Part shown: positions 294 through 30,665 of the stretch, in pieces | How positions within the stretch are numbered: the first letter of the stretch is position 1 | How the letters are laid out: each line of letters begins with the position of its first letter | Source: Acidobacteriota bacterium | Lineage (GTDB): Bacteria; Acidobacteriota; Terriglobia; 20CM-2-55-15 | DNA: 64,000 nt | Reading direction: 5' to 3' | NCBI GenBank assembly: GCA_022821145.1 | Contig: JAJEEE010000056.1 | Span: forward strand, 1-64,000 | Position numbers and translations under genes: made by a program | The notes under the pieces: generated by a model | Database searches by the model: none | Told to the model about the DNA's origin: nothing | Seen by the model: the letters and a program-made list of their open reading frames with translations, nothing else

Positions 294-1805
294 CTATGGG
301 GTCCGGGTCCGCCGCAGGGCGCGCCCCACGCGCTGGAACCCCAGGCCCATCCCGATCAGGCTGGTCGCCAGCCCCCCGATGCTGAGGACGATCACGCCGA
401 TGTCCCACGCCGGCCGATTGTGATACCAGAAGCCGAAGTCGAGGCTGTGGAAGCCGTTGTAGATCCACCGGTCCAGCCGTCCGCGGTCGGTCAGCCGCCG
501 CATCAGCCGGCTTCGGGCCGGATCGATGTAGAGCCACGTGCGGTCCGCGTCGCCGAGCTTGAAGCGGACCACGGGCAGGGGCGGGGCGCCCGCCCTGGGA
601 TAGTAGTAGTGGTCGTAGGCCGTCAACGTCTCGGACTCGACGACGGCGCCGTCGCCGAAGGCGCCGCGCACCTGATCGAGGAGACGCGCCGGCGAGACCG
701 CGCCGGCCGGCGGCCCGGGCGGCGATGCGGACATCAGCGTCTCGCGGCCGTCCCCGCCGACGGCGACGTAGTGGGGCCGGCCCTGGATTCGCAGGAACCG
801 CAGTTCCTTGACGCCGTTTCCGGCGGCCGCCGCCCAAACGTCCGGCTCGGCCTTCGGGAACAACCCCAACTCGAGCGGGCCGCCGGTCAGGGTCCGCTCC
901 AGGCGGGCCGTGTCCACGCCGCCCTCGGCGGCCCATCCCCACGGGTCCATCGACAGCAGCCCGCTGAAGACCCATGTCAACGTGAACAGGCCGAAGACGA
1001 AGCCCGTCACGTAGTGCCAGCGCATCCATCCGCGGTAGGGCGCGTATTCCAGCAGGCGGCGGAACCGGAACGGGCGCGACGGGCGGAACTGGAGCAGGCC
1101 GACGAACAGGCCCAGAAGCGCCATGGCGCAGCCGGCGGCGGCCAGCCAGATGACGGTCTGCGCCCACAGCGGCCCGTTCAGGCGCAAGGGCGTGAAGTAG
1201 AGCCAGTGCGGAATGGCCGCGACCCATGCCAGGGCGCGCGTGCCGCGCGTCGTCAGGACCGCCACTTCCCCGGTCCGTTCGGAGACGTAGAGCTCGGTGC
1301 GCGCGCGGTCGTTCACGCGGATCCGGTGCATCGGCAACCGGGCGCGCTCGACCAGCGTCCACTGGTCGGCCTCGTGGAGAACGCCGGCGTGCTCGAGCCG
1401 CGCGCCGGAATCGCCCACGAAACGCGCGGCCACCGACAACGCGTCGCCGGGGTCCACACCGAACAGCAGCTCGCCGGTGTCGGCGAAGACCGTCACGTCC
1501 CCGCGCGTCGTGAACCGGTACGCCGGCCGGCCCATCACCGTCAGGAGCGCGGCGCGGTCCGGGTGGCCGCCGAGCCGCGCGGCCTCGGCGGCCTCGGACG
1601 GGCCGAGGCGGACGCGGGAGAAGTCCAGGGACGGCATCCGGGCCAGGCGGGTCTCCGGCGACAGCGCCGGCATGCCGCGCGCGTAGATCATGGCGATGCC
1701 CGACACGAACCAGGCCGCGAACAGCAGGCTGAACGGAATGCCCGCGTAGCGATGGATTCGAATGGCCCACCAGCGGACGTGGGACAGCCCGGGGACGGGC
1801 ATCAT
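294..1805 (-). CDS. PepSY-associated transmembrane protein
   Basis: About 503 residues. An N-terminal membrane segment (residues about 16-34, after RWWAIRIHRYAGIPFS) is followed by a large PepSY-type extracytoplasmic region. Further hydrophobic segments lie near 230-260, 300-320 and close to the C-terminus (ending RRTRTP). The order TM - PepSY - TM pair - PepSY - TM fits the iron-regulated or PepSY_TM family, linked to reductase or metal-uptake roles at the inner membrane. The start ATG overlaps the stop of the sensor kinase (ATGA), so it is translationally coupled as the last gene of a regulator-kinase-PepSY operon. Substrate unknown; a metal- or redox-related role is inference. Confidence 0.8.
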   Translation of the reverse strand: MMPVPGLSHVRWWAIRIHRYAGIPFSLLFAAWFVSGIAMIYARGMPALSPETRLARMPSLDFSRVRLGPSEAAEAARLGGHPDRAALLTVMGRPAYRFTTRGDVTVFADTGELLFGVDPGDALSVAARFVGDSGARLEHAGVLHEADQWTLVERARLPMHRIRVNDRARTELYVSERTGEVAVLTTRGTRALAWVAAIPHWLYFTPLRLNGPLWAQTVIWLAAAGCAMALLGLFVGLLQFRPSRPFRFRRLLEYAPYRGWMRWHYVTGFVFGLFTLTWVFSGLLSMDPWGWAAEGGVDTARLERTLTGGPLELGLFPKAEPDVWAAAAGNGVKELRFLRIQGRPHYVAVGGDGRETLMSASPPGPPAGAVSPARLLDQVRGAFGDGAVVESETLTAYDHYYYPRAGAPPLPVVRFKLGDADRTWLYIDPARSRLMRRLTDRGRLDRWIYNGFHSLDFGFWYHNRPAWDIGVIVLSIGGLATSLIGMGLGFQRVGRALRRTRTP

Positions 1806-3220
1806 GACACCGCGTGCAGCGGGCCGGCCTGCGCGACGGAGGCCCCGGGCAGCGTGATCCGGAACCGGCAGCCGGCGCCGCCGGAGTCCTCCAGCGTCAA
1901 GCGCCCGCCGTGAGCCTCGACGGCCCACTTCGCGATCGACAAACCCAGGCCCACGCCCGCGCTTCCGCCGGAGGCCGGGGCCCCGTCCGCGCGGAAGAAC
2001 CGGTCGAAGACGCGGTCGCGCAATTCCGGGGCGATGCCCGGACCGGTGTCCACCACGTCGACGATGCCGCCGCCGCCGGCGTGATCCACGAGCACCGTGA
2101 CGCGTCCGCCCTCGGGCGTGTGCCGGATGGCGTTGTCGACCAGGTTGATCAACGCCTGGCCGAGCACGAGCCGGTCCCCGTCGAAGGTCACGTCCCTCAA
2201 CCGCTCGACGCGCACCGACTGCCGCTTCTCCTCGGCCAGCACGTCGAGCTGTCCGACGACATCGGCGGCGAGGCCGCCGAGATCGATCCGTTCCGAGGAC
2301 AGCCGGATCGGGCCGGCGCCGGTTCGAGACAGCATCAGCAGGCGCTCCACCAGGCGCGTCATGCCGTCGGCCTCCTCGAGCATGCTGCCGATGACCTGCC
2401 GGTAGGCGGCGGCCGTCTTCGGCTGGCGCAGGCCGACTTCGCCGACGCTGCGGATGGCCGTCAGCGGCGTTCGCAACTCGTGCGAGACGTCGGAAGTGAA
2501 ACGGCGCATCTGCTCGAACGACGACTCCAGGCGGGTGAGCGTGTCGTTGAACACCGTGGCCAGCCGTCCCAGCTCGTCGTCCGGGTTCTCCACCGGCAGA
2601 CGGTCTCCCAGACGGTCGGCCGTGATGGAGCGGGCCCGATCCGCCATGCTCCGGACCGGCGCCAACGCTCCCCGAGCCAGGGAGTATCCCCCCAGACCCG
2701 CCAGGGCCACGCCGACGGGCAGGCCGAGCAACAACACCAGGAGCAGCTCGACGCGCTCGCCCCGCATGGGTCCTTCCGATCGGGCCACCTGGATCACGTA
2801 GGGCCGGTCCCCGATCCGCGACTCGCCGCTCAGCACCCGCCACGGCGGCTCAACGTCGTCCACGGACACGATCGCGTCACGGGCGTCCACTGCGAGCGTG
2901 TCGACGCTTGGGACGAGGCTGCGCTGGGCGTTCCAGGTGCTGTAGAGCAGGTCGCCGTCCAGGCTCCACACGCGAAGCCACGGGCTGGCGTCGGTGTCCG
3001 CGCTCGCGTCGAACGTGCCGAGCGACCCGTCGGGCAGCCGCTCCAGCATTTCGTTCGGCCACTGAAAGTCGGCGCGCAGCCGGTCGTTCAGGCTCTCGGA
3101 GCCGTTGCGGCTGACCACGACGAACACGGTGCCGGCGTACACGGTCAGGATGGCGACCATGACGGCGACGTTCCAGAACGTCAGCCGGATCCGGAACGCG
3201 GAAATCGGCCCCAGCGTCAC
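1802..3220 (-). CDS. Sensor histidine kinase (OmpR-type partner, CusS-like layout)
   Basis: 472 residues. TM1 is about 18-37, a periplasmic loop about 38-155, TM2 about 157-180, then HAMP (LAPVRSMADRARSI). The dimerisation H-box FTSDVSHELRTPL has phospho-acceptor His247. The ATPase core shows an N box (NLVDNAIRH), G1 (DTGPGIA), an F box and G2 (GVGLGLSIA). The periplasmic loop is short, as in heavy-metal or envelope sensors. It overlaps the upstream response regulator by 4 bases (3217-3220) and the downstream PepSY gene by 4 bases, so the three form one cotranscribed unit. The stimulus is not shown by the sequence; metal or redox stress is a guess from the PepSY partner. Confidence 0.9.
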   Translation of the reverse strand: MTLGPISAFRIRLTFWNVAVMVAILTVYAGTVFVVVSRNGSESLNDRLRADFQWPNEMLERLPDGSLGTFDASADTDASPWLRVWSLDGDLLYSTWNAQRSLVPSVDTLAVDARDAIVSVDDVEPPWRVLSGESRIGDRPYVIQVARSEGPMRGERVELLLVLLLGLPVGVALAGLGGYSLARGALAPVRSMADRARSITADRLGDRLPVENPDDELGRLATVFNDTLTRLESSFEQMRRFTSDVSHELRTPLTAIRSVGEVGLRQPKTAAAYRQVIGSMLEEADGMTRLVERLLMLSRTGAGPIRLSSERIDLGGLAADVVGQLDVLAEEKRQSVRVERLRDVTFDGDRLVLGQALINLVDNAIRHTPEGGRVTVLVDHAGGGGIVDVVDTGPGIAPELRDRVFDRFFRADGAPASGGSAGVGLGLSIAKWAVEAHGGRLTLEDSGGAGCRFRITLPGASVAQAGPLHAVS

Positions 3221-3900
3221 GGCGCCGTCTCCCCGAGCGCGAAGCCCACGCCCCGGACGGTGTGGATCAGCCGGGGCGCGCCGCCGGCGTCGATCTTCCG
3301 CCGGAGTCGCGCGATGTGGACGTCGATGACGTTATCGATCGGCGTGGCGCGTTCGGTCACTTTCCAGACGTCGCGGGCGAGCGTCTCCCGTGACACGGTC
3401 CGTCCCTGGCGCCGGAGCAGGTATTCGAGCAGCTCGAACTCCCGGGTGGTCAGATCCACCGGCTGGCCTGCGCGGTCGACCTTGCGCGTGAGCAGATCCA
3501 TGTGCAGGTCCGATACGCCGAGCGACAACGCGTCGTCGATGCGCCCCCGACGGAGGAGCGCCCGGATCCGGGCAAGCAGTTCCTCGAACGCGAACGGCTT
3601 GACCAGGTAGTCGTCGGCGCCGCTGTCCAGCCCCAGGACGCGGTCTTCGAGCGTGTCCCGGGCGGTCAGCAACAGCACCGGCGTCTGGACGCCCTGCTCC
3701 CGGAGCGTGCGGAGCACCTCCAGGCCGTCCCGTCCCGGCAGCATCACGTCGAGCAGAATCAGGTCGAACCGCTCGGCCGACGCCCGGAAGAAGGCGTCCT
3801 CGCCCGTCTCGGCGATCGCCGCTTCGTAGTGTTCGCCCTCCAGGCCCTCCTGGAGGGCCCCGGCGACCTTTTGCTCGTCCTCGACGATCAGGATACGCAC
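3217..3900 (-). CDS. OmpR-family response regulator
   Basis: 227 residues. The receiver domain has the acidic pair ED (7-8), phospho-acceptor Asp51 in LILLDVMLPG, a switch Thr in LLLTARD and Lys in LVKPF. The C-terminal winged helix (about 130-225) contains LTTREFELLEYLLRR and a DNA-recognition region ending IHTVRGVGFALGE. It is the first gene of the regulator-kinase-PepSY operon and overlaps the kinase start by 4 bases. It should be phosphorylated by the adjacent kinase and act at local promoters; targets are unknown. Confidence 0.92.
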   Translation of the reverse strand: MRILIVEDEQKVAGALQEGLEGEHYEAAIAETGEDAFFRASAERFDLILLDVMLPGRDGLEVLRTLREQGVQTPVLLLTARDTLEDRVLGLDSGADDYLVKPFAFEELLARIRALLRRGRIDDALSLGVSDLHMDLLTRKVDRAGQPVDLTTREFELLEYLLRRQGRTVSRETLARDVWKVTERATPIDNVIDVHIARLRRKIDAGGAPRLIHTVRGVGFALGETAP

Positions 3901-4011: not shown

Positions 4012-4812
4012 TCAGCGCGCCTGGGGCGTGGACGAGAAGAACGGGTTGCCGAAGTCGTCCCGCAGATCGAGCAGGAACTTGTTGTTCTCCTGGCAGATGT
4101 ACTCCTGCAGCTCCTGGCCCTCGCGCCACTCGATGTCCCACGCGATGGTCCACGGCTCGGTGTAGGCGCCGGGATCGTCGATCGTCGTCTCGTAGCGCAG
4201 CGTGTTCCGGTCCGGGCGCGTGATCCGCTCGACGGTCCGCAGCATGCCGGTGTGCATGTGCCCGCCGAAGTCCAGCCAGGTCTTCTCGTTGAAGCCGACC
4301 GTGTCGACGACGAGCGTGTCGCCGTCCCAGCGGCCGACGGAATGCCCGAAATAGGTCGGGTTCAGCGCGTCGCCCTCCGGATGCGCGCGGCCGTCCATGT
4401 GGATCTCGCGCCAGACGTGGGCGCCGCCCTCGTAGATGATGATGATGCGGTCCTCGTCCTGGATGATCTCGGCCGGATACGGCGTCCCGAACGCGCGTGG
4501 ACCGCCCGGGGGCAGGCAGAACCCTTCGGGATCGTAGGCCACGTTGTTCGAGGCGTTGTATGCGTGCATCGCCCGGGTCCAGGGCAGGAACGGGACCTCG
4601 CCGCCGTCGACCTTGAAGTCGGCGAAGTTCCGGATCCAGGGCAGTCCCCACACCCCGTCGCCGCCCAGGTCGACCGTGCCGTCGGGCATTCGAGGGGTCG
4701 GCGGCGCGTCGGCGGATCCGTCCTGCGCCCACGCGGCGGGCGCGAGCGCCAGGAGGCCGGCGGCGGCCAGCGCCAGGAGTCGGTGGTTTCGGTTCCTCAA
4801 TGCTGTTCGCAT
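4012..4812 (-). CDS. Secreted protein of a family common in Acidobacteriota, function unknown
   Basis: 266 residues with an N-terminal signal peptide (RLLALAAAGLLALAPAAWA, cleavage before QDG). The core has GFCLPPGGPRAFGTPYPAEI, then HSVGRWDGDTLVVDTVGFNEKTWLD, then HTGMLRTVERITR and a TIDDP...TEPW ending. The same core occurs in the proteins at 8606-9643 and 9643-10560, so these are paralogues. I know no biochemical role for the family; location is periplasmic or extracellular. The start follows GAGGAG. It lies 10 bases downstream of the small secreted gene at 4823-5224 and is likely cotranscribed with it. Confidence 0.8.
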   Translation of the reverse strand: MRTALRNRNHRLLALAAAGLLALAPAAWAQDGSADAPPTPRMPDGTVDLGGDGVWGLPWIRNFADFKVDGGEVPFLPWTRAMHAYNASNNVAYDPEGFCLPPGGPRAFGTPYPAEIIQDEDRIIIIYEGGAHVWREIHMDGRAHPEGDALNPTYFGHSVGRWDGDTLVVDTVGFNEKTWLDFGGHMHTGMLRTVERITRPDRNTLRYETTIDDPGAYTEPWTIAWDIEWREGQELQEYICQENNKFLLDLRDDFGNPFFSSTPQAR

Positions 4813-4822
4813 GACCGTCTCC

Positions 4823-5224
4823 TCAGTTGAGCACCACGCGGAACGTCCCGTCCTCGTCGCCGTGGGAATAGGTTCCCGAGTAGGTCCGGTTCGTCCAGGA
4901 ACCCAGGTTCTCCAGCGTGCCGACGGCCGTGTAGCGCTCGACGCCGGACCGGGTGGGGACCATGGCCTCGATGGTCAGCGTCCAGGTGGACGGGTCCAGC
5001 TCGGCGCGATCGATCGCGATCGCGTTCGGACCGGGGTTGATGGTGCCCGAGATCTCGTTGCCGTCCCAGTCCAGCAGCAGCAGGATGCGGTTGCGGTGGT
5101 CCTCGGTCGGTCCCCAGTCGCCGCTCCATGATCCCTTGACGGGATGCCCGGCCTGCGCCAGCGCCGTCGCGGCGATCGCCAGGCAGGCGATAAGGGAGAA
5201 AAGACGCGATGTTCCGGTCTTCAT
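4823..5224 (-). CDS. Small secreted protein, unknown function
   Basis: 133 residues: a signal peptide (RLFSLIACLAIAATALAQ) and a compact beta-rich mature part (HPVKGSWSGDWG..., LLLLDWDGNEISGTINPG, GTFRVVLN). The ATG at 5224 is preferred over the in-frame GTG at 5236, because AAGGAG is 11 bases before the ATG and overlaps the GTG. It is followed 10 bases later by the paralogous secreted protein, suggesting an operon. Residues W-G-D-W and the turn-rich pattern suggest a small barrel, but no known family is claimed. It is divergent from the DUF6152-like gene at 5405. Confidence 0.7.
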   Translation of the reverse strand: MKTGTSRLFSLIACLAIAATALAQAGHPVKGSWSGDWGPTEDHRNRILLLLDWDGNEISGTINPGPNAIAIDRAELDPSTWTLTIEAMVPTRSGVERYTAVGTLENLGSWTNRTYSGTYSHGDEDGTFRVVLN

Positions 5225-5337
5225 CGTTGAATCCACTCCTTAGACGGTATCCGTCTCGTTGAATCGAAGACCCGAATATAGCATCAGTCGCGGCCGGAGC
5301 GGCAACCGAATCGCCGTCGGGCGCGGGCCGCCCGACC

Positions 5338-5367
5338 TTGACAGCCGGCGACCGCCCGAACGACAAT
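5338..5367 (+). promoter_or_regulatory. Sigma-70-type promoter for the 5405-8005 genes
   Basis: A perfect -35 TTGACA (5338-5343) and a -10-like GACAAT (5362-5367) are separated by 18 bases. The predicted start lies about 30 bases before the ATG at 5405, leaving room for the GGAGGT ribosome site. Confidence 0.5.
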
Positions 5368-5404
5368 TCATGCTCGCTTCGGTTCCGAACCTGGAGGTAT
5401 CTCG

Positions 5405-5809
5405 ATGAAGACGAGGCTGGCAATCGCATTCGCCGCGGCGGGCGTCCTGGCCGCGGCGTCCGTTCCCGTCCTGGCGCACCATTCCTTCGGCGCGGAGTTC
5501 GACGCCGAGCAGACGTTCGAGTACTCGGGCGTGGTGACCAAGATCGAATGGCTGAATCCGCATGTCTACTTCTACATGGACGTTACGATGGACGACGGCT
5601 CCGTCGAGAACTGGGCCATGGAGATGGGCAGCCCGAACGGCCTGATGCGGCGGGGTTGGACGCGCAACTCGCTGCGGATCGGCGACACCGTCTCGACTGC
5701 CGGCAGCAAGGCCCGCGACGGCAGCGCCAAGGGGAACGCGCGCACGGTCGTCCTGGCCTCGGGCCGGCAACTGTTCGCCGGGTCCTCGCAGGACGCCGAG
5801 AACAACTAG
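5405..5809 (+). CDS. DUF6152-like secreted protein
   Basis: 134 residues. The signal peptide (LAIAFAAAGVLAAASVPVLA) is followed at once by HHSFGAEFDAEQ, then GVVTKIEWLNPHVYFYMDV and a W-A-M-E-M-G-S-P-N motif. The HHSFxAEFD start and NPH motif are the hallmarks of this family; I assign DUF6152 from memory. The paired histidines at the mature N-terminus could bind metal, which is inference. A paralogue is at 8040-8441. The start follows GGAGGT. It heads a rightward group with the dihaem cytochrome (79-base gap) and the LigC-type dehydrogenase. Confidence 0.8.
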   Translation: MKTRLAIAFAAAGVLAAASVPVLAHHSFGAEFDAEQTFEYSGVVTKIEWLNPHVYFYMDVTMDDGSVENWAMEMGSPNGLMRRGWTRNSLRIGDTVSTAGSKARDGSAKGNARTVVLASGRQLFAGSSQDAENN

Positions 5810-5888
5810 GAGCCGCCCGCCCGATTCTGGCCGGGCCGCGGCCGCGGCCCGGTCGATTCCGTCTCTGTCCCGGGAGTCCCATACGCCT

Positions 5889-7034
5889 ATGCCAAGGAGC
5901 GTCTTCAGTCCGCGCCTGCTTGCCGGGTGCCTCGCCGCCGCCCTGTGCGTCCAACCGGGCGCGGGGGCCGCTCAGGAGCCGGAAACCCTGCTGGCCCGCG
6001 ACTTCTTCCTGAACGTGCCCGACATGGGCGACGTGCCCGTGGACGAGTTCATGGAGACCATGGGAATGTTCGCGGCCGCGCTGGGCCTGAACTGTGCCGA
6101 TTGTCACACGTTCGAGAGCAGCAGCAGTTGGGAGGCCTACGCGGACGAGACCGACATCAAGGAGACCTCGCGCCGGATGATCCGGATGGTGCGGGCCATC
6201 AACGAGGAGAACTTCGGCGGGCAGCAGTTCGTCAGTTGCTGGACCTGCCACCGCGGGGACCTGCGGCCCCGGGTGGTCCCGAACCTGGAGATCCAGTACT
6301 CGGCGCCGATCGACGACCCCAACGAGGTGTTCTTCGCGCCCGACCCGGACGCGCCTCCGGCGTCGGACATCTTCGACGAGTACATCGCGGCCATCGGCGG
6401 CGCCGGGGCCGTGGCGGCGCTGGACGGCTTCGAGGCCGACGCCGTCTACAACGGTTTCGACACCGGTTTCGAGGACGCCGAGGCGGAGCTCTACGCCACG
6501 CGGCCCGACCGGCTGGCCATGACCGTCCACGCGCGGCCCGGCGACAGCGTCCGCGTCTACGACGGCGAGCGGGGGTGGATCGCCGCCACCGACAAGCCCA
6601 TGCCGCTGATGACGCTGACCGGCGACACGCTGGGAGGCGCCCGGCTCGATGCGGTCCGGCTCTTCCCCGACGCGCTCCAGGCGGAGCGCAACTTCTGGCA
6701 GATCGGCTACACCGTCCTCAACGACGCCGAGGTGCGCGTGCTGCGCGGCATCAGTCCCGGCCAGGCCCCCGTCAACCTGTATTTCGACGACGACGGGCTG
6801 ATGGTCCGGATGCTGCGCTTCGTGGACACCCCGGTGGGCCGCGTCCCCACCCAGATCGACTTCTCGGACTACCGCGAGGTGGCCGGCGTCCGGATCCCGT
6901 TCCAGTGGACGTCGACCTGGACGAACGGCCAGGCGTCGGTGCGGCTGACGGATGTGCGTCCGACGGCGGACGTCGACCCGTCGCGCTTCGACACGCCGCC
7001 CCCGTCGCCGCCGGCTCGGGCCAACGTTAACTAG
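5889..7034 (+). CDS. Dihaem cytochrome c, reaction-centre cytochrome subunit-like
   Basis: 381 residues. A signal peptide (residues about 1-28, cleaved near GAAQE) is followed by two c-type haem sites, CADCH (69-73) and CWTCH (117-121), in an N-terminal domain resembling the photosynthetic reaction-centre cytochrome family but with two haems rather than four. From about 190 to the end the protein has no haem motif and resembles lipoprotein-carrier-like beta structure (VRVYDGERGWIAATD, RIPFQWTSTWTNG). This is a fusion commonly seen in non-phototrophic Acidobacteriota. No photosynthesis genes are present, so a role as a periplasmic electron carrier for a neighbouring oxidation is likelier. It is 29 bases upstream of the LigC-type gene. 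Confidence 0.82.
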   Translation: MPRSVFSPRLLAGCLAAALCVQPGAGAAQEPETLLARDFFLNVPDMGDVPVDEFMETMGMFAAALGLNCADCHTFESSSSWEAYADETDIKETSRRMIRMVRAINEENFGGQQFVSCWTCHRGDLRPRVVPNLEIQYSAPIDDPNEVFFAPDPDAPPASDIFDEYIAAIGGAGAVAALDGFEADAVYNGFDTGFEDAEAELYATRPDRLAMTVHARPGDSVRVYDGERGWIAATDKPMPLMTLTGDTLGGARLDAVRLFPDALQAERNFWQIGYTVLNDAEVRVLRGISPGQAPVNLYFDDDGLMVRMLRFVDTPVGRVPTQIDFSDYREVAGVRIPFQWTSTWTNGQASVRLTDVRPTADVDPSRFDTPPPSPPARANVN

Positions 7035-7063
7035 CACACCCAATAGCACACGGAGCAGACCGT

Positions 7064-8005
7064 ATGAAGATCAGCATGGTTGGAAGGGGCGCGTTCGCCA
7101 AGAAGCACCTGGCGGGGCTGGCCCGGATCGACGGCGTGGAAGTCGCCTCCATCGTCGGGCGCGTGCCCGAGACCACCGAGGCCACCGCGCGGCAGTTCGA
7201 CATCCCGCACTGGACGACCGACCTGGCGGAATCTCTGGAGCAGCCCGGGATCGAGGCCGCCATCCTGACCTCGCCCACGCAGGTCCACGCCGCTCAGGCC
7301 GAGCAGGTGATGCGGGCCGGCAAGCACGTCGAGATCGAGATCCCGATCGCCGATTCGCTGGCCGACTCCCGGCGCATCCTGGAGGTCCAGCAGGAGACCG
7401 GCCTCGTGGCGATGGCCGGCCACACGCGGCGCTTCAACCCCAGCCACCAGTGGATCCGCAACAAGATAGCGGCCGGCGAGCTGTCGCTGCAGCACCTGGT
7501 CGTCCAGACGTTCTTCTTCCGCCGGACCAACATGAACGCCGAGGGCCAGCCCAGGAGCTGGACCGACCACCTGCTCTGGCACCATGCGTGCCACACGGTC
7601 GACCTGTTCCAGTACCAGACGGGCGAGACGGCGTCGGACGCGTTCGCCGTCCAGGGGCCGACGCACCCGGAGCTGGGCATCGCAATGGACATGACCATCG
7701 GCATGAAGACGGCGTCGGGCGCGGTCTGCACGCTGGCCCTGTCGTTCAACAACAAGGGGCCGCTGGGGACGTTCTTCCGCTACATCTGCGACAACGGCAC
7801 CTACATCGCCCGATACGACGACCTGGTCGACGGCGACGAGAACCCGATCGACGTGTCGCAAGTGGACGTGTCGATGGACGGCATCGAGCTGCAGGACCGC
7901 GAGTTCGTCGCGGCCATCCGCGAAGGGCGGGAACCGAACGCGAGCGTCGCCCAGGTGCTGCCGGCGATGGACACCCTCCACCGTCTCGAGCAGTCGTTGC
8001 GGTAG
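7064..8005 (+). CDS. ligC: 4-carboxy-2-hydroxymuconate-6-semialdehyde dehydrogenase (LigC type), Gfo/Idh/MocA family
   Basis: 313 residues, the usual length for LigC. The Rossmann start ISMVGRGAFAKKHL is followed by KHVEIEIPIADS and the family-specific stretches GHTRRFNPSHQW, SWTDHLLWHHACHTVDLF and GPLGTFFRYICDNGTYIARYDDLV. These closely match Sphingobium LigC as I remember it. The enzyme oxidises the ring-cleavage product of protocatechuate to 2-pyrone-4,6-dicarboxylate using NAD(P)+ in the cytoplasm. GGAG lies 8 bases upstream of the ATG. The matching dioxygenase and aldolase lie 6 kb away on the other strand; no LigI or LigJ was found in the window. Confidence 0.85.
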   Translation: MKISMVGRGAFAKKHLAGLARIDGVEVASIVGRVPETTEATARQFDIPHWTTDLAESLEQPGIEAAILTSPTQVHAAQAEQVMRAGKHVEIEIPIADSLADSRRILEVQQETGLVAMAGHTRRFNPSHQWIRNKIAAGELSLQHLVVQTFFFRRTNMNAEGQPRSWTDHLLWHHACHTVDLFQYQTGETASDAFAVQGPTHPELGIAMDMTIGMKTASGAVCTLALSFNNKGPLGTFFRYICDNGTYIARYDDLVDGDENPIDVSQVDVSMDGIELQDREFVAAIREGREPNASVAQVLPAMDTLHRLEQSLR

Positions 8006-8039
8006 GCGGGAACGTCCGCCGCCCGGGCGCGGGTTGGGG

Positions 8040-8441
8040 CTACTGCGGCTGTTCGATCGCGGAGCCGCCGGACAGGAAGATGCGCCGCCCGTCGGGGAAG
8101 GTCATGTCCCGTCCGTTGGCCCGGTTCGATCCGTCCAGCGCCCGGAAACCGTCGACGAGGATCTCGGTGCCGACAGGCAGCGTGTTCTGATTGACGCCGC
8201 GCCGGAACAGCGCGTTGGGCGTCCCGCCCTCGATCATCCAGCGGGTCACCGTGCCGTCGTCCTCGGTCACGTCGATATGGAACCACGAGTGCGGGTTGAT
8301 GAACTCCACGCGGACGATCGTTCCCCTCAGATTGACCGGTTGCTCGGCGTCGAACTCGGCCGAGAACGCGTGATGCGCCCAAACGCCGGCCGGGACGGCC
8401 AGCAACAGCAGGACGGGTCCGGCGGCGGCCTTGGCATTCAT
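8040..8441 (-). CDS. DUF6152-like secreted protein (second copy)
   Basis: 133 residues: a signal peptide (AAAGPVLLLLAVPAGVWA) then HHAFSAEFDAEQPVNLRG, VEFINPHSWFHIDV and WMIEGGTPNALFRRG. It shares the HHxFxAEFDAEQ start, NPH motif and G-P-N-x-L-x-R-R-G stretch with the protein at 5405-5809, so the two are paralogues. It converges on the LigC-type gene (34-base gap) and is divergent from the secreted-protein pair at 8606-10560, sharing a 164-base intergenic region with it. Function unknown. Confidence 0.8.
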   Translation of the reverse strand: MNAKAAAGPVLLLLAVPAGVWAHHAFSAEFDAEQPVNLRGTIVRVEFINPHSWFHIDVTEDDGTVTRWMIEGGTPNALFRRGVNQNTLPVGTEILVDGFRALDGSNRANGRDMTFPDGRRIFLSGGSAIEQPQ

Positions 8442-8544
8442 TGCGAGTGCTCCTCTCCCGGTCCGAACCGGGCGATGGTACTCGAATGATCCCCGCGATC
8501 GGAATCGATGTCAACGAACGCGGCGGGACGCAAGTCGAGAGTCG

Positions 8545-8574
8545 TTGCCAGGGCGTCCGTATTGGCGGTACCCT
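8545..8574 (+). promoter_or_regulatory. Possible promoter for the 8606-10560 pair
   Basis: TTGCCA (8545-8550) and TACCCT (8569-8574) are 18 bases apart and end about 31 bases before the ATG at 8606. The -35 is good and the -10 is poor, so this is tentative. Confidence 0.3.
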
Positions 8575-8605
8575 GACCGCAACGCGCAGATCGGGAGGTC
8601 TTCCA

Positions 8606-9643
8606 ATGAGCGGCCGTATTGCCTTGTTCGCGGGTGTGGCGGGTGTCGCCGTCCTTGCATCGGCGTGTCTTGTCCCCGCCGCGCACGCCCAGTCGGCCAC
8701 CGAGCCGGACACGCCGTTGACGCCCTGGGGCGACCCGGACCTGCAGGGCGTCTGGGCGAGCGACTCGGCCACGCCGCTGGAACGTCCCGCGGCGCTCGAA
8801 GGCCGCGCGACTCTGACGGATGAGGAAGTGGCGTTGCTGGAACGGCGGGCGGGGGAGCTCTTCAACGGCGAGACCGACGCCGCGTTCGGAGACAGCGTGT
8901 TCAACGCCGTCTTCAACGAGGCCACGGACTTCACCTCCACGGACACGACCGGCAACTACACCCAGTTCTGGCTGATCGATCGCTGGTTCGAGAACCGCAC
9001 GTCGTTGATCGTGGACCCGCCCGACGGCCGGATCCCACCGCTGACGCCCGAGGCCGAGGCCCGGCAGGAGGCCCAGCGCGCCCAACGCGCCGCCGAGCGC
9101 GCGGCCTCGCCGTTGCCCCGCGGGCCCGAGGACTTCGCCGCGGGCCTCCGCTGCACGGGCGGCCGCGTGCCCATGACCGGACGCGGCTACAACAGCAACT
9201 ACCAGATCGTGCAGGCGCCGGGATACGTCGTCATCAACATGGAGATGATGCACGACGCCCGGATCATTCCCCTCGACGGGCGGCCGCACGGTCCATCCCA
9301 CATCCGCTCCTACGTCGGCGACTCGCGCGGGCGTTGGGAGGGCGGCGCCCTGGTCGTCGAGACCACGAACTTGAGAGCCGGAGGGCGCGCGACCGGCGCG
9401 TCCACGGGCGAGAACCTGCGCCTGATCGAACGGTTCTCCCGTGTCGGGGCCGAATCGCTCCGGTACGAGTTCACCGTCGACGATCCCACGACCTGGACGC
9501 AACCCTGGACGGCGGTGATCTTCATGAGGCCGGCGCCGGGCACGGGTCTGATGTACGAGTTCGCGTGTCACGAGGGCAACTACGCTCTCGAATACGCTCT
9601 CCGTGGCGCGCGCATGCAGGAAGCGGAAGCGGGTTCGAACTAG
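8606..9643 (+). CDS. Secreted protein of the W-x-G-x-x-L-V-V family, unknown function
   Basis: 345 residues. The ATG at 8606 is chosen because GGGAGG is 8 bases upstream and it begins a signal peptide (ALFAGVAGVAVLASACLVPAAHA). The mature part starts with PLTPWGDPDLQGVW, a motif of this family, has an Ala/Arg/Glu-rich helix near 150-175 (EAEARQEAQRAQRAAERAA), then the core YVGDSRGRWEGGALVVETTN and LRYEFTVDDPTTWTQPW. It is longer than the paralogue at 4012-4812 owing to the N-terminal insertion. Its stop overlaps the GTG start of the next gene by one base. No enzymatic role is known to me. Confidence 0.78.
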   Translation: MSGRIALFAGVAGVAVLASACLVPAAHAQSATEPDTPLTPWGDPDLQGVWASDSATPLERPAALEGRATLTDEEVALLERRAGELFNGETDAAFGDSVFNAVFNEATDFTSTDTTGNYTQFWLIDRWFENRTSLIVDPPDGRIPPLTPEAEARQEAQRAQRAAERAASPLPRGPEDFAAGLRCTGGRVPMTGRGYNSNYQIVQAPGYVVINMEMMHDARIIPLDGRPHGPSHIRSYVGDSRGRWEGGALVVETTNLRAGGRATGASTGENLRLIERFSRVGAESLRYEFTVDDPTTWTQPWTAVIFMRPAPGTGLMYEFACHEGNYALEYALRGARMQEAEAGSN

Positions 9644-10560
9644 TGCGGCGACCGTCGACGATCGCGATCGGGGTTGCCGCGATGGCCCTGGGCTGTTGGG
9701 CCGCCGCCGCGGCCCAGGACTTCAACGCTCCCCGCCTGGAGGGTACGCCGTATCCGGACCTGAACGGGATCTGGCAAACCCTGAACACGGCGCACTGGGA
9801 CCTGGAAGCCCACGTGGCGCGGCCGGGTCTGGCGACCGAGCCCGGCCCGGACGGGGACGTGCCGGCGGCGGCCGTCCTGGCGCTCGGGGCGATCGGGGGC
9901 GTTCCCGGCGGGGCCGGTGTCGTCGACGGCGGGCCCATCCCGTACCAGGAATGGGCCCTGGCCCGGAAGCAAGAGAACTTCGAGAACGCCCTGGCGCGCG
10001 ACCCGGAGGTGAAGTGCTTCCTGCCGGGGGTCCCGCGCGCCACGTACATGCCCTATCCCATGCAGATCGTCCAGAGCACGGACCGGATCCTGCTCGTCTA
10101 CGAGTACGCGTCGGCGAACCGCACGATCTACATGAACGACGTGGGTCCGGCCCCGGCGCCCTCCTGGATGGGGCACTCCGTCGGCCGCTGGGAAGGCGAC
10201 ACGCTGGTGGTCGAGGTGACCGACCAGCGCGCGGAAACGTGGCTCGACCGGGCCGGGAACTTCCATAGCGGGGCGTTGCGCGTGACGGAGCGGTACACGC
10301 CCCTCGGCCCCGACCATATCCAGTACGAAGCGACGATCGACGACCCGGAGGTCTTCACCCGCCCCTGGACGATCCGCATGCCCCTGTATCGCCGCGTGGA
10401 GCCCGACGCGCAACTGACCGAGTACCGCTGCGTGGAGTTCGTCGAGGAACTCCTGTACGGTCACCTGCGGAGCGAGCCACTGATCCGGCGTTGGGAGGGA
10501 GACTTCGGAACCCTTGGCGGAAACGTCGTCATCGACGTCACGCGCTCCCCGGACCCCTGA
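9643..10560 (+). CDS. Secreted protein of the same family, unknown function
   Basis: 305 residues from a GTG that shares its G with the preceding TAG stop (coupled translation). The signal peptide is TIAIGVAAMALGCWAAAAA, cut near QDF. The core is CFLPGVPRATYMPYPMQIV, GHSVGRWEGDTLVVEV, HSGALRVTERYTP and YEATIDDPEVFTRPWTI. The order of motifs matches the 4012-4812 protein more closely than its immediate neighbour does. It is the last gene before a 770-base repeat region. Periplasmic or extracellular; function unknown. Confidence 0.75.
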   Translation: MRRPSTIAIGVAAMALGCWAAAAAQDFNAPRLEGTPYPDLNGIWQTLNTAHWDLEAHVARPGLATEPGPDGDVPAAAVLALGAIGGVPGGAGVVDGGPIPYQEWALARKQENFENALARDPEVKCFLPGVPRATYMPYPMQIVQSTDRILLVYEYASANRTIYMNDVGPAPAPSWMGHSVGRWEGDTLVVEVTDQRAETWLDRAGNFHSGALRVTERYTPLGPDHIQYEATIDDPEVFTRPWTIRMPLYRRVEPDAQLTEYRCVEFVEELLYGHLRSEPLIRRWEGDFGTLGGNVVIDVTRSPDP

Positions 10561-22636: not shown

Positions 22637-23212
22637 ATGCAGAACAGGACAGTGATGATCGCCGGCTTCCTGGCCGGGTTCGTGAGCGCCCTCGTGTGGG
22701 TTCTCGGCACCGACGTCTTCCAGGGCCTGAGGCTCTGGTTGGAAGCGACGTTCTTCGGGACGTTCGTCCGCGAATCGACGTCGGCGTTCGGCTATCCGAC
22801 GTTCATCGTGCTTCACACCGTCGGCCTGGCCGTCGTCGTCGGCACGAGCACGCTGGTCGCGCTTCGTGTTCTCGGATTCGCGTCGACCATTCCGATCGCG
22901 CCGCTCGGGCGGCTGTTCCCGCTGATTTGGGGCGGGTTCGCGATCAACCTGTTCTCCGGAAGCGGCCTGGCCGCGGCGACGGCCGACGGGCAGTTGACCA
23001 ACCCGGTGTTCACCGCGAAGATCGTCTTCGTGGTCATCGCCGTCACGGCGATGTTCCTGCTGCAGAAGTCGCTGTTCGTGGACGCGCCCGAGCGCGAGCC
23101 CACCGTGACCCGCCTGCACCGGCAGTTGGCCGGGTCGATGGTCGGCTTATGGCTGCTGGCGATGGTGGCCGGGCGCCTGATCGCCTACGCCGGCGTCATC
23201 GTCGGTCGTTGA
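22637..23212 (+). CDS. Four- to five-helix membrane protein, unknown
   Basis: 191 residues with hydrophobic segments near 8-28, 58-80, 90-105, 130-150 and 165-185. A conserved-looking FIVLHTVGLAVVVGTSTLVALRVL lies in the second segment with a His that could bind haem; NLFSGSGLAAA and FTAKIVFVVIAV follow. It resembles DUF6644/DUF2214-like proteins, recalled without certainty. It precedes another multi-helix protein (22-base gap) and a 36-residue membrane peptide, which together look like a small inner-membrane assembly. Confidence 0.6.
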   Translation: MQNRTVMIAGFLAGFVSALVWVLGTDVFQGLRLWLEATFFGTFVRESTSAFGYPTFIVLHTVGLAVVVGTSTLVALRVLGFASTIPIAPLGRLFPLIWGGFAINLFSGSGLAAATADGQLTNPVFTAKIVFVVIAVTAMFLLQKSLFVDAPEREPTVTRLHRQLAGSMVGLWLLAMVAGRLIAYAGVIVGR

Positions 23213-23234
23213 ACCGGGTTCGAGGAGTCGCCTC

Positions 23235-24179
23235 ATGAACTTTATCGCTGAGCTGTTCGACATGAACTACGCGCATGTCCACATCGTGTTGAACCACTTC
23301 CCGACCGTCGGGGCCGCCATCGCGTTCGGGCTGCTGATGTACTCGTTGTTGCGCCGGCACGCCGAGCTGGAGGAGATCAGCCTGGTGCTCCTGATGGTGC
23401 TGGCGCTGCTGGGGATCCCGACCTTCATCACGGGCGCCGCCGCCGAGAGCACCATCAGCGTGCGTTCGGACACGGCGCTGGTCGAGGCCCACAAGGACGC
23501 CGCGGTGATCGCGTTCGTGCTGCTCGCCCTGACCGGGACCGCCGCCTGGCTCGGCCTGTGGCAGTCGCGCCGGTTCAAGCGCGTGGCCATGTGGAACCAG
23601 GTCGCCGTGTGCGGGCTCTCGCTCGTCACGCTGATCGCGATGGTCTGGACCGGAACGATGGGCGGCGAGATCAGCCACGTCGAGATCCGCGAGGAAGGGA
23701 TGGTGATTCCCGCCGAGGCCGAGACGGGCCTCAACGGGGAACTTGAGGCGTGGGTGCTGGACAACGCCTGGGTGTGGCCCGCCGGCGAGACGCTGCACTT
23801 CACCGGCATGACGATGTTGTTCGGCGTCGCCGTGCTGGTCAACCTGCGCCTGGTGGGCCTGCTCCGCAGTATCCCGTTCCGAGCGCTGCACCGGTTGTTG
23901 CCGATCGCCATCGCGGGTTTCGGCATCTCGCTGATTTCGGGCATGCTCCTGTTCAACGCCAACCCGATGCGGTACATCGCCGTGCCCACGTTCTTCCTGA
24001 AGATGTTCCTGCTGGTCGTCGCGGCGATCCTCGTGCTCTACGTGACGGTCTTCGACACCACCTGGAACCTGCGCGCCGGCGACAAGCCGCCGGTGGTGGC
24101 CAGGACGATCGGCGTCGCGACGACGGCCATGTGGTTGTGCGTGCTGTATTTCGGCCGGATGATCCCGTTCCTGGAGTAG
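23235..24179 (+). CDS. Multi-pass membrane protein with HxxLNHFP motif, unknown
   Basis: 314 residues and about eight membrane segments. The N-terminus NYAHVHIVLNHFPTVGAAIAFG resembles the opening of DUF2231-type membrane proteins, with several His on helices that could hold haem (HVHIVLNH, EAHKDAA, LHFTG). The C-terminal half (from about 190) repeats features of the preceding protein: LHFTGMTMLFGVAVLVNLRLVGLL aligns by eye with its FIVLHTVGLAVVVGTSTLVALRVL, so the proteins are related. Possibly a redox-linked membrane module; not established. Confidence 0.62.
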   Translation: MNFIAELFDMNYAHVHIVLNHFPTVGAAIAFGLLMYSLLRRHAELEEISLVLLMVLALLGIPTFITGAAAESTISVRSDTALVEAHKDAAVIAFVLLALTGTAAWLGLWQSRRFKRVAMWNQVAVCGLSLVTLIAMVWTGTMGGEISHVEIREEGMVIPAEAETGLNGELEAWVLDNAWVWPAGETLHFTGMTMLFGVAVLVNLRLVGLLRSIPFRALHRLLPIAIAGFGISLISGMLLFNANPMRYIAVPTFFLKMFLLVVAAILVLYVTVFDTTWNLRAGDKPPVVARTIGVATTAMWLCVLYFGRMIPFLE

Positions 24180-29498: not shown

Positions 29499-30665
29499 CT
29501 ACGAAACCATCACCGTCCGCGGGAACTGCGCGTTGTGCTCGAGGAACGTCTCCTTGACGGCCGACAGCTCCTCGTCGGTGACCTGGGTCACGCCGTTGAC
29601 GTCCGTGGCGCGCGAGACCAGCGTGTGCTCGCCGGCCGCCGCGCCGTCCCAGTCGAAGGTGAACAGCTTCCAGGAATACCGGGTATTGGCGGGATCGAGC
29701 GTGGCGCGCCGCCACGGGCCGTCGTCGACGCGGACCTCGACCGATTCCAGCGGCGTGCCGTCGTTCAGGACGAAGCCCAGGATCCGGTGCGTCCCGCCCT
29801 GGCGGGTCACCCGTGCGATCACGGACTTGATCCGCAGCCGCGTGACCTCGGTCTCGTTGAACTTCACCTCCCCGCCGATCTCCTGCTGGCGCACGGTGCG
29901 GTACCAGCGCGCCTGGAAGTGGCCCACGAACCGTTCCTGCTGGACGTGCATGCCGGTCACCCACTTGACGTTGGCCACGCCGTACCACCCGGGCACGACG
30001 ACGCGGGCCGGCGCGCCCTGGCGGGCGCCGAGCGGCTCCCCGTTCAACGCGTAGGCGATGATCGCGTCGCTTTCCATCGCGTCGCGGAGCGACATGCTGC
30101 GGGCGAACTGCGACTCGAACGTGATGTCGTTGCCGCGGAAATTCCCCGTCTCCTCGCCGCGGTCGGCGCCCAGGAACACGACTTCCCGGGCGCGGTCGGC
30201 CACGCCCGCCTCCTCGAGCAGGTCGCGGACGCGCGTTCCAGTCCACAGTCCGCACGAGGACAGGCCCTGGACGCTGCGCGCGCTGTTGCCCGAGCACTCG
30301 TACCCGGCCGGCATTTCCACCGGCTCGTGCGAGCGGATGTCGGCCAGGGACAGTTCCGCGGGGTTGTCCACCAGGCCGGTCAACTGCAGCCGGTAGGCGT
30401 CGGGATCGAGATCGGGCACGGGATAGTGCGCGATCGAGAAGAACTCGTCGGTCGGGGTGAACAGCCCGTCGATGTTCCGGATGTCGTACAGCCGGACCCG
30501 GCCTTCGCCGCCGGGGTTGAACGTCGGCGGGATATCGGTGAACGGGACGACGGCCTCGCCCTGAACCAGGGCGGGAAAGGCCCACCGCGGCACGGCTGCG
30601 AGGGCGCCGGTGGCGGCCAATCCCATTTTCAGGACGTCGCGGCGGGCAAGGTGCGGCATCGACAT
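29499..30665 (-). CDS. Tat-exported sulfite oxidase-family molybdoenzyme (SoxC/SorA/YedY superfamily)
   Basis: 388 residues; ATG 30665 has GAAGGAG 8 bases upstream. Tat signal ARRDVLKMGLAATGALAA. The molybdopterin domain has the Mo-ligand Cys124 in YECSGNSARS and the sulfite oxidase patterns GLWTGTRVRDLLEEAG and GWYGVANVKWVTGMHV. A C-terminal Mo-co_dimer domain (about 285-388) has RGGTHRILGFVLNDGTPLESVEVRVDDGPWR. It would be a periplasmic oxidoreductase of a sulfur compound or related substrate. A cytochrome partner is not adjacent, so the electron acceptor is unknown. Confidence 0.87.
   Translation of the reverse strand: MSMPHLARRDVLKMGLAATGALAAVPRWAFPALVQGEAVVPFTDIPPTFNPGGEGRVRLYDIRNIDGLFTPTDEFFSIAHYPVPDLDPDAYRLQLTGLVDNPAELSLADIRSHEPVEMPAGYECSGNSARSVQGLSSCGLWTGTRVRDLLEEAGVADRAREVVFLGADRGEETGNFRGNDITFESQFARSMSLRDAMESDAIIAYALNGEPLGARQGAPARVVVPGWYGVANVKWVTGMHVQQERFVGHFQARWYRTVRQQEIGGEVKFNETEVTRLRIKSVIARVTRQGGTHRILGFVLNDGTPLESVEVRVDDGPWRRATLDPANTRYSWKLFTFDWDGAAAGEHTLVSRATDVNGVTQVTDEELSAVKETFLEHNAQFPRTVMVS

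Follow-up and report, generated by a model that had tools for sequence, protein, structure and literature searches.

DUF6152 proteins and a secreted, predicted barrel family recur as pairs throughout an Acidobacteriota genome

Introduction

Pfam assigns no function to DUF6152 (PF19649), and we found no mention of DUF6152, PF19649 or the membrane protein family DUF6644 in the open-access literature, although absence there is no proof. Here we consider a 64,000-nucleotide stretch of DNA from an Acidobacteriota bacterium (assembly GCA_022821145.1, contig JAJEEE010000056.1, positions 1 to 64,000), referred to as the window. Between positions 4012 and 10560 it carries DUF6152 proteins with a conserved HH (hereafter D) together with members of a secreted family named after its GDTLVV motif (hereafter G) and of a small secreted family (hereafter S). 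Open-access searches on calycins in bacteria, OB proteins with a histidine brace and the expansion of paralogues in acidobacteria listed no report of a G-D pair.

The closest described systems each resemble one aspect of this pair. In catabolic bacteria, the Bug/TctC-type periplasmic binding proteins are an expanded group, with many secreted, ligand-binding paralogues encoded close to genes for catabolism; G and D are likewise numerous and secreted and have such neighbours, but differ from them in families and folds and in having two partners. The FABP/CRBP proteins of the calycin superfamily are the nearest structural counterpart of G, and FABPs have 10 strands. For D, two kinds of metal protein are relevant. 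According to one article, the copper histidine brace consists of an N-terminal His and a second His, and N-terminal-His proteins such as CopC bind copper (PMC10952591). Another states that SilF and CusF are the sole OB-fold proteins devoted only to metal binding, with methionines and a tryptophan as their metal ligands (PMC10656224).

Results

The host assembly of the window is 4.18 Mb long and 99% complete, and it contains 88 matches to DUF6152, every one above the Pfam cut-off. Of these D genes, 82 have a G gene at most 2 kb away (74 on the same strand), where no more than 13.8% would be expected by chance, and for 69 the distance is 500 bp or less. In addition, 13 genes of this genome are D-G fusions, and D is the N-terminal partner in all 13. 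In contrast to this constant order within fusions, gene order in unfused pairs is free, with 30 D-first and 28 G-first. When the distance matrices of 58 unfused pairs were compared, G and D were found to diverge together (r = 0.525), a correlation reached by none of 5000 permutations (maximum 0.215). Because this comparison was made within one genome, the co-divergence is not a species-tree effect, and joint duplication explains it.

The pairing extends beyond this genome. We collected 80 related loci, chosen by G alone, and D was present within 2 kb of G in 60 of them; of the 93 D domains that these loci contain, 91 were so placed. They yielded 12 more D-G fusion sequences, D again being N-terminal in every one, and co-divergence across 68 related pairs was similar (r = 0.589; 0 of 5000 permutations). 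The same G-D pair is also found on named sphingomonad and rhizobial plasmids. Among 119 genomes of the phylum, D was detected in 10 and G in the same 10 (Fisher P = 9e-15, ignoring kinship), and the labels of the search tool assign these to 5 families and 7 genera. For the richest genomes, the phylum searches scored only some of the candidates (for D, 38 of 95 in the window genome; for G, 21 per genome) and thus report presence, not copy number. The G-D pairing is therefore well supported, and because synteny, fusion, co-divergence and phyletic pattern agree, we conclude that G and D form one system. The same four lines of evidence support the suggestion, made in an earlier note on this DNA, that an undescribed periplasmic process is common to both families.

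The DNA pattern of the G core occurs 67 times in the genome, compared with 2 occurrences of the reversed pattern. A profile search gave 122 matches (150 of 176 candidates scored), or 118 once split matches were joined, a count in which one further overlapping pair on contig C85 is left unjoined; a home-made profile run on the called genes of the fetched loci gave 125. Genes outside the window were called with a home-made codon-usage caller. The S family has 12 matches. Together, the G and D genes make up 79 clusters, and the copies are highly diverged, with a mean identity of 30% for G and 32% for D. The genome of one related locus, Acidobacteria bacterium isolate p16x33bins.48, has a GroEL 91% identical to that of the window genome.

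Other origins of these genes were considered and rejected. An assembly artefact or contig-end repeats would place the genes near contig ends, and 12 of 206 G/D genes lie less than 1 kb from one against 4.3% expected, which is no clear excess. Spread by phages was set aside since no D was found in phages, and spread by plasmids since the plasmid records with G (8) or D (9) are all alphaproteobacterial. The clustering of G and D paralogues is real, and the 67 to 2 count of the core pattern and the genome-wide pairing show that it exceeds chance.

The genes of the window cluster are listed in order in Table 1, and their positions agree with those given in the earlier note, which had drawn attention to a shared GxWxGDTLVV core in three proteins and to a shared HH start in two. 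The core is exact in G1 (GRWDGDTLVV) and G3 (GRWEGDTLVV); G2 reads GRWEGGALVV and lacks the DT. G2 is nonetheless a true member of the family, being 38% identical to G1 and aligning along its length, and it was matched in the genome search. The HH starts, HHSFGAEFDAEQ and HHAFSAEFDAEQ, are exact in the two D proteins, both of which exceed the DUF6152 gathering score by a wide margin (106.3 and 103.2 bits against a cut-off of 27). The candidate GTG start of G3 overlaps the TAG stop of G2 by one base, which suggests that the two genes may be translationally coupled.

Table 1. Genes of the G/D cluster at 4012-10560 of the window
Feature	Coordinates	Strand	Basis
G1, secreted GDTLVV-family protein, 266 aa, predicted lipocalin/FABP-like barrel	4012..4812	-	Open reading frame; AlphaFold (AF2) model; fold match CRBP/FABP
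S, small secreted family, GxW motif, directly upstream of G1	4823..5236	-	Open reading frame
D1, DUF6152 (PF19649), predicted mature start HHSF, NPH motif	5405..5809	+	Pfam E 8.9e-31; alignment
PufC-like dihaem cytochrome c, C-terminal DUF6544-like region; bystander	5889..7034	+	CytoC_RC 41.9 bits
Gfo/Idh/MocA oxidoreductase, neighbour	7064..8005	+	OxRdtase_C E 2.4e-94; GFO_IDH_MocA E 5.8e-20
D2, DUF6152, NPH motif, mature protein predicted to start HHAF; oriented divergently to G2	8040..8441	-	Pfam E 8.6e-30; alignment
G2, divergent GDTLVV-family protein (GRWEGGALVV), 345 aa	8606..9643	+	Alignment; genome profile search
G3, GDTLVV-family protein, core GRWEGDTLVV	9643..10560	+	Alignment; genome profile search

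The histidines of D are strongly conserved. HH is found near the start in 176 of 181 D sequences; of the five that lack it, two look like truncated gene calls and the others belong to three fusion proteins of the related loci. HH is immediately preceded by a signal-peptidase -3/-1 motif in 155 of 165 sequences, a set drawn from the 176 HH-bearing proteins by dropping those with HH too near the start. At offsets of -1 to -4 the same motif was seen in 18 of 164, 71 of 164, 35 of 161 and 72 of 161 sequences, and at +1 to +4 in none. Because the motif lies right before HH, mature D is predicted to begin with His-His. Both HH histidines are conserved in 176 of 178 sequences each and the histidine of the NPH motif in 179 of 180, which places them among the most conserved non-glycine positions, and all three are invariant in 38 of 38 D proteins from Acidobacteriota, Alpha- and Gammaproteobacteria. 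It is plausible, judging from this conservation, that the HH pair and the NPH histidine constitute a metal site, and to that extent the metal chemistry proposed in the earlier note is possible.

Neither D nor S has a solved relative or a sequence relative in the PDB. To obtain a model of D, we folded a natural D-G fusion from a related genome (locus L153) with 126 sequences, which gave a predicted local distance difference test score (pLDDT) of 88.7, with the D domain mostly above 90. D is predicted from this model to be a five-stranded OB-fold, the best match being PriB (4apv; Z 9.4, root-mean-square deviation (rmsd) 2.3, 81 aligned), followed by single-stranded DNA-binding proteins at Z 8-9. 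Taken together, the PriB and single-stranded DNA-binding protein matches span Z 8-9.4 with about 80 residues aligned and, for most, an rmsd of 2.2-4.0. CusF and other OB proteins are missing from the VIA list, which is no evidence against those proteins.

D resembles CusF and SilF in being a small periplasmic OB-fold protein. It differs from them in that no Met column reaches 85% or more, and its conserved polar residues are instead His-His and NPH. An assignment of D as a CusF/SilF-type metallochaperone was rejected, since the site of methionines and a tryptophan is not matched by any conserved Met column. D, which is secreted, may resemble the histidine-brace copper proteins (LPMO, CopC, PmoF1) in its predicted mature N-terminal His and its second invariant His. 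D differs from them in its predicted OB-fold, in having two adjacent N-terminal histidines and in nearly always occurring with a barrel partner, and its putative metal site is predicted from sequence. To our knowledge, no histidine-brace analogue is built on an OB-fold.

For G, no Pfam or NCBIfam family was matched by the three window proteins, the nearest approach being an NCBIfam hit below threshold (E 0.035) that covers the signal region of G1, and 0 of 96 aligned members matched either database at E 0.01 or better. There was no sequence relative in the PDB; a profile search at E 10 found one unrelated chain alone, and homology to FABP/CRBP was not detected. Thus, a search for a known enzyme family for G in Pfam, NCBIfam and PDB sequences returned none.

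The AF2 model of G1, built with 96 sequences, has a pLDDT of 87.5 and best matches CRBP/FABP (Foldseek E 1.9e-3; for CRBP1 5h9a, Z 8.9, rmsd 3.2, 123 aligned). The G part of the L153 fusion model matches the same structure (Z 8.3, rmsd 3.5, 124 aligned). In the G1 model, a strand at 53-56 is followed by helices at 63-109 and by strands from 114 onward, with 9 strands called in all. The GxW motif (94% and 87%) lies at the first strand. Based on the models, G is predicted to be a lipocalin/FABP-like barrel, and both the order of elements and the position of GxW fit a calycin of the FABP type. As modelled, it resembles FABP/CRBP in the GxW at the first strand and the helices between strands A and B, in addition to the best fold match. 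It differs in being bacterial and secreted, in the 9 strands called, in having no sequence relative in the PDB, and in a near-invariant Cys pair (96% and 91%). Such a pair fits a secreted protein.

Other fusions of G were noted. In locus L110 (5327-7060) G is fused to glyoxalase-type domains, and in L085 (5367-7283) and L062 (9343-11244) it is joined to a C-terminal domain that appears metallo-beta-lactamase-like by eye, that of L085 having no Pfam hit. In L072 (4899-6668) it is fused to an unnamed N-terminal region. The S family, which has a GxW motif and a GHP early in the sequence, is present in 19 of the 80 related loci (L151, L153, L111 and others) and is probably another small barrel.

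Secretion signals were assigned to G and D by rule, and their surroundings are also enriched in secreted-like proteins. Immediate neighbours of G/D genes were secreted-like in 82 of 181 cases compared with 75 of 321 control genes (P = 7e-7), where secreted-like is a crude rule and genes shorter than 80 aa were excluded. Among 189 immediate neighbours, the Pfam families found included Lactamase_B (9) and PQQ (8), with fewer amidohydrolases, gluconolactonase, tannase and glyoxalase. This tally has no Pfam-scanned control, so enrichment is judged solely from searches of the whole genome for PQQ and Lactamase_B. In these, 21 of 40 PQQ dehydrogenase genes were within 5 kb of a G/D gene (22% expected, P = 2e-5), and for Lactamase_B the figure was 15 of 39 (21% expected, P = 0.01), the chance levels being derived from the lengths of those contigs that carry G/D genes. 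In sphingomonads, TonB-dependent receptors stand beside G-D pairs. About 40 genes for PQQ quinoprotein dehydrogenases in a 4.2-Mb genome are a large expansion in themselves.

D was also seen near DUF6644-type genes: directly beside one in Sinorhizobium sp. C101 (L197, 9932-10797, without G), next but one in S. mexicanum (L196, 9929-12405, with G), and nearby in Novosphingobium (L191) and Sphingobium (L192). It is possible that the L197 and L196 arrangement represents a minimal or ancestral module. Across 30 DUF6644 sequences, a His and a Lys in the membrane part are invariant. As a core part of the system DUF6644 was rejected: it lies near some clusters, yet just 7 places in the genome carry it, as do 5 of the 80 related loci. 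The window itself carries two adjacent, weakly matching DUF6644-type membrane proteins at 22655-24179, 12 kb from the G/D cluster (Pfam below cut-off; home-made profile E 2e-21 and 8e-27).

The earlier note had placed a haem protein in the cluster, and the cytochrome gene does have two CxxCH motifs and a CytoC_RC (PF02276) score above the cut-off of 22.4 bits. However, CytoC_RC matches at two places only in the genome, the window and C74:21169-21795, and a PufC-type dihaem cytochrome is present in 1 of 79 G/D clusters. Relatives of the window cytochrome were found in 3 of 80 related loci. CxxCH proteins were not significantly enriched among immediate G/D neighbours (10 of 189 vs 9 of 337 control genes, P = 0.15), and neither G nor D has a CxxCH of its own. 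We regard the dihaem cytochrome as a bystander. Thus, the association with cytochromes does not generalize, and the result comes close to the random scattering relative to cytochromes that the earlier note had named as counting against its own proposal.

Elsewhere in the window, a gene for a PepSY-type membrane protein followed by a histidine kinase and a response regulator occupies 294-3900 and reaches the G1 gene (named by eye and from the Pfam neighbour tally), a set that is a possible regulator of the G/D cluster. A molybdopterin oxidoreductase with a Tat-like start is encoded at 29499-30665 (Oxidored_molyb E 7e-43).

Discussion

A conserved D motif combined with many divergent G partners makes a common metal/redox head with variable substrate barrels the simplest scheme. 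We tentatively favour a two-part periplasmic module, present at many catabolic loci, in which G would confer ligand specificity and D a common metal/redox function. The pair has been duplicated as a unit many times. Each G barrel would capture a particular small hydrophobic or aromatic compound, and the mature N-terminal His-His of D, together with the invariant histidine of the NPH turn, would hold a metal, most likely copper. D would dock on G, and the pairs would help to take up a variety of organic compounds in the periplasm and to carry out their first oxidation, alongside quinoprotein dehydrogenases, enzymes of the metallo-beta-lactamase fold and other secreted enzymes.

Several observations weigh against this scheme. 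The fold scores are middling (the best Z for G, 8.9, is barely above the noise of the tool, and that for D is 9.4), a common arrangement of elements may suffice to produce them, and such modest scores prove no function for either protein. In the L153 model the mature N-terminus of D (residues 22-30) has a pLDDT below 50. Three fused D domains (L125, L139 and L145) lack HH, two of which keep NPH. PQQ and metallo-beta-lactamase genes are only moderately enriched, roughly half of the former being located away from G/D genes. In Sinorhizobium sp. C101, D stands beside a DUF6644-type gene with no G in the 20 kb read. Finally, the folds and the mature N-terminus are predicted, and we infer that D binds a metal, that G binds a ligand, that the two touch and that the pairs act in periplasmic catabolism.

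The alternative that fares best, which we regard as possible but somewhat unlikely, is that the proteins are carriers only: G would ferry hydrophobic compounds through the periplasm as FABPs do in animal cells, and D would play a purely structural part, linking G as an adaptor to some receptor or enzyme, and redox chemistry would not be involved. The FABP-like order of strand, helices and strands in G and its best fold match are consistent with this, as are the TonB-dependent receptors adjoining pairs in sphingomonads and the secreted nature of the neighbours. However, an adaptor leaves unexplained why the mature His-His and the NPH His are near-invariant in D copies that average so little identity, and why D keeps its N-terminal place in fusions.

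We are more doubtful that D acts as a chaperone for a metal (copper) in partnership with the membrane protein DUF6644, as CopC does with CopD, while G binds a metal-ligand complex. The DUF6644-type genes near D in the four loci described above, the invariant His and Lys in the membrane part of DUF6644 and the precedent of CopC all point in this direction. Against it, 88 D and about 120 G copies in one genome far exceed the needs of metal homeostasis, and DUF6644 is too seldom found with the pairs. An expansion without common chemistry, in which contact with a host or competitors drove the diversification of proteins that are secreted or on the surface, would account for the high copy number and divergence of both families; it seems to us very unlikely given that the motifs are strictly conserved, the pairs co-diverge and the neighbours are of catabolic type, although no search aimed at recombination cassettes or toxin domains was made. 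Least probable is the periplasmic haem process built around the dihaem cytochrome that the earlier note had proposed, which the position of the cytochrome between D1 and D2 and its few relatives in related loci would favour, but which the rarity of cytochrome partners, the lack of significant CxxCH enrichment and the absence of CxxCH from G and D lead us to reject as a general explanation.

Returning to the two-part G-D module, one specific form of it, which we offer as an unlikely but consequential possibility, is that D-G would be a new class of periplasmic copper oxidoreductase, with an OB-fold subunit bearing an N-terminal-His copper centre, analogous to the histidine brace, and, bound to it, an exchangeable lipocalin-like barrel for the substrate.

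In a single genome of 4.2 Mb, some two hundred genes belong to an undescribed two-part system, whose pairs recur in Acidobacteriota, Gammaproteobacteria and sphingomonads and one half of which, G, has no Pfam or NCBIfam family name. Pairing, fusion and the shared histidines turn what would be annotated as hypothetical protein into a testable hypothesis, that of an N-terminal-His metal protein plus a ligand barrel, which bears on the ways in which bacteria of soil and sea that have not been cultured deal with varied organic matter. If the copper oxidoreductase reading were true, the dozens of D-G pairs in a genome would be a repertoire for the first attack on dissolved organics, like the P450 repertoires inside cells.

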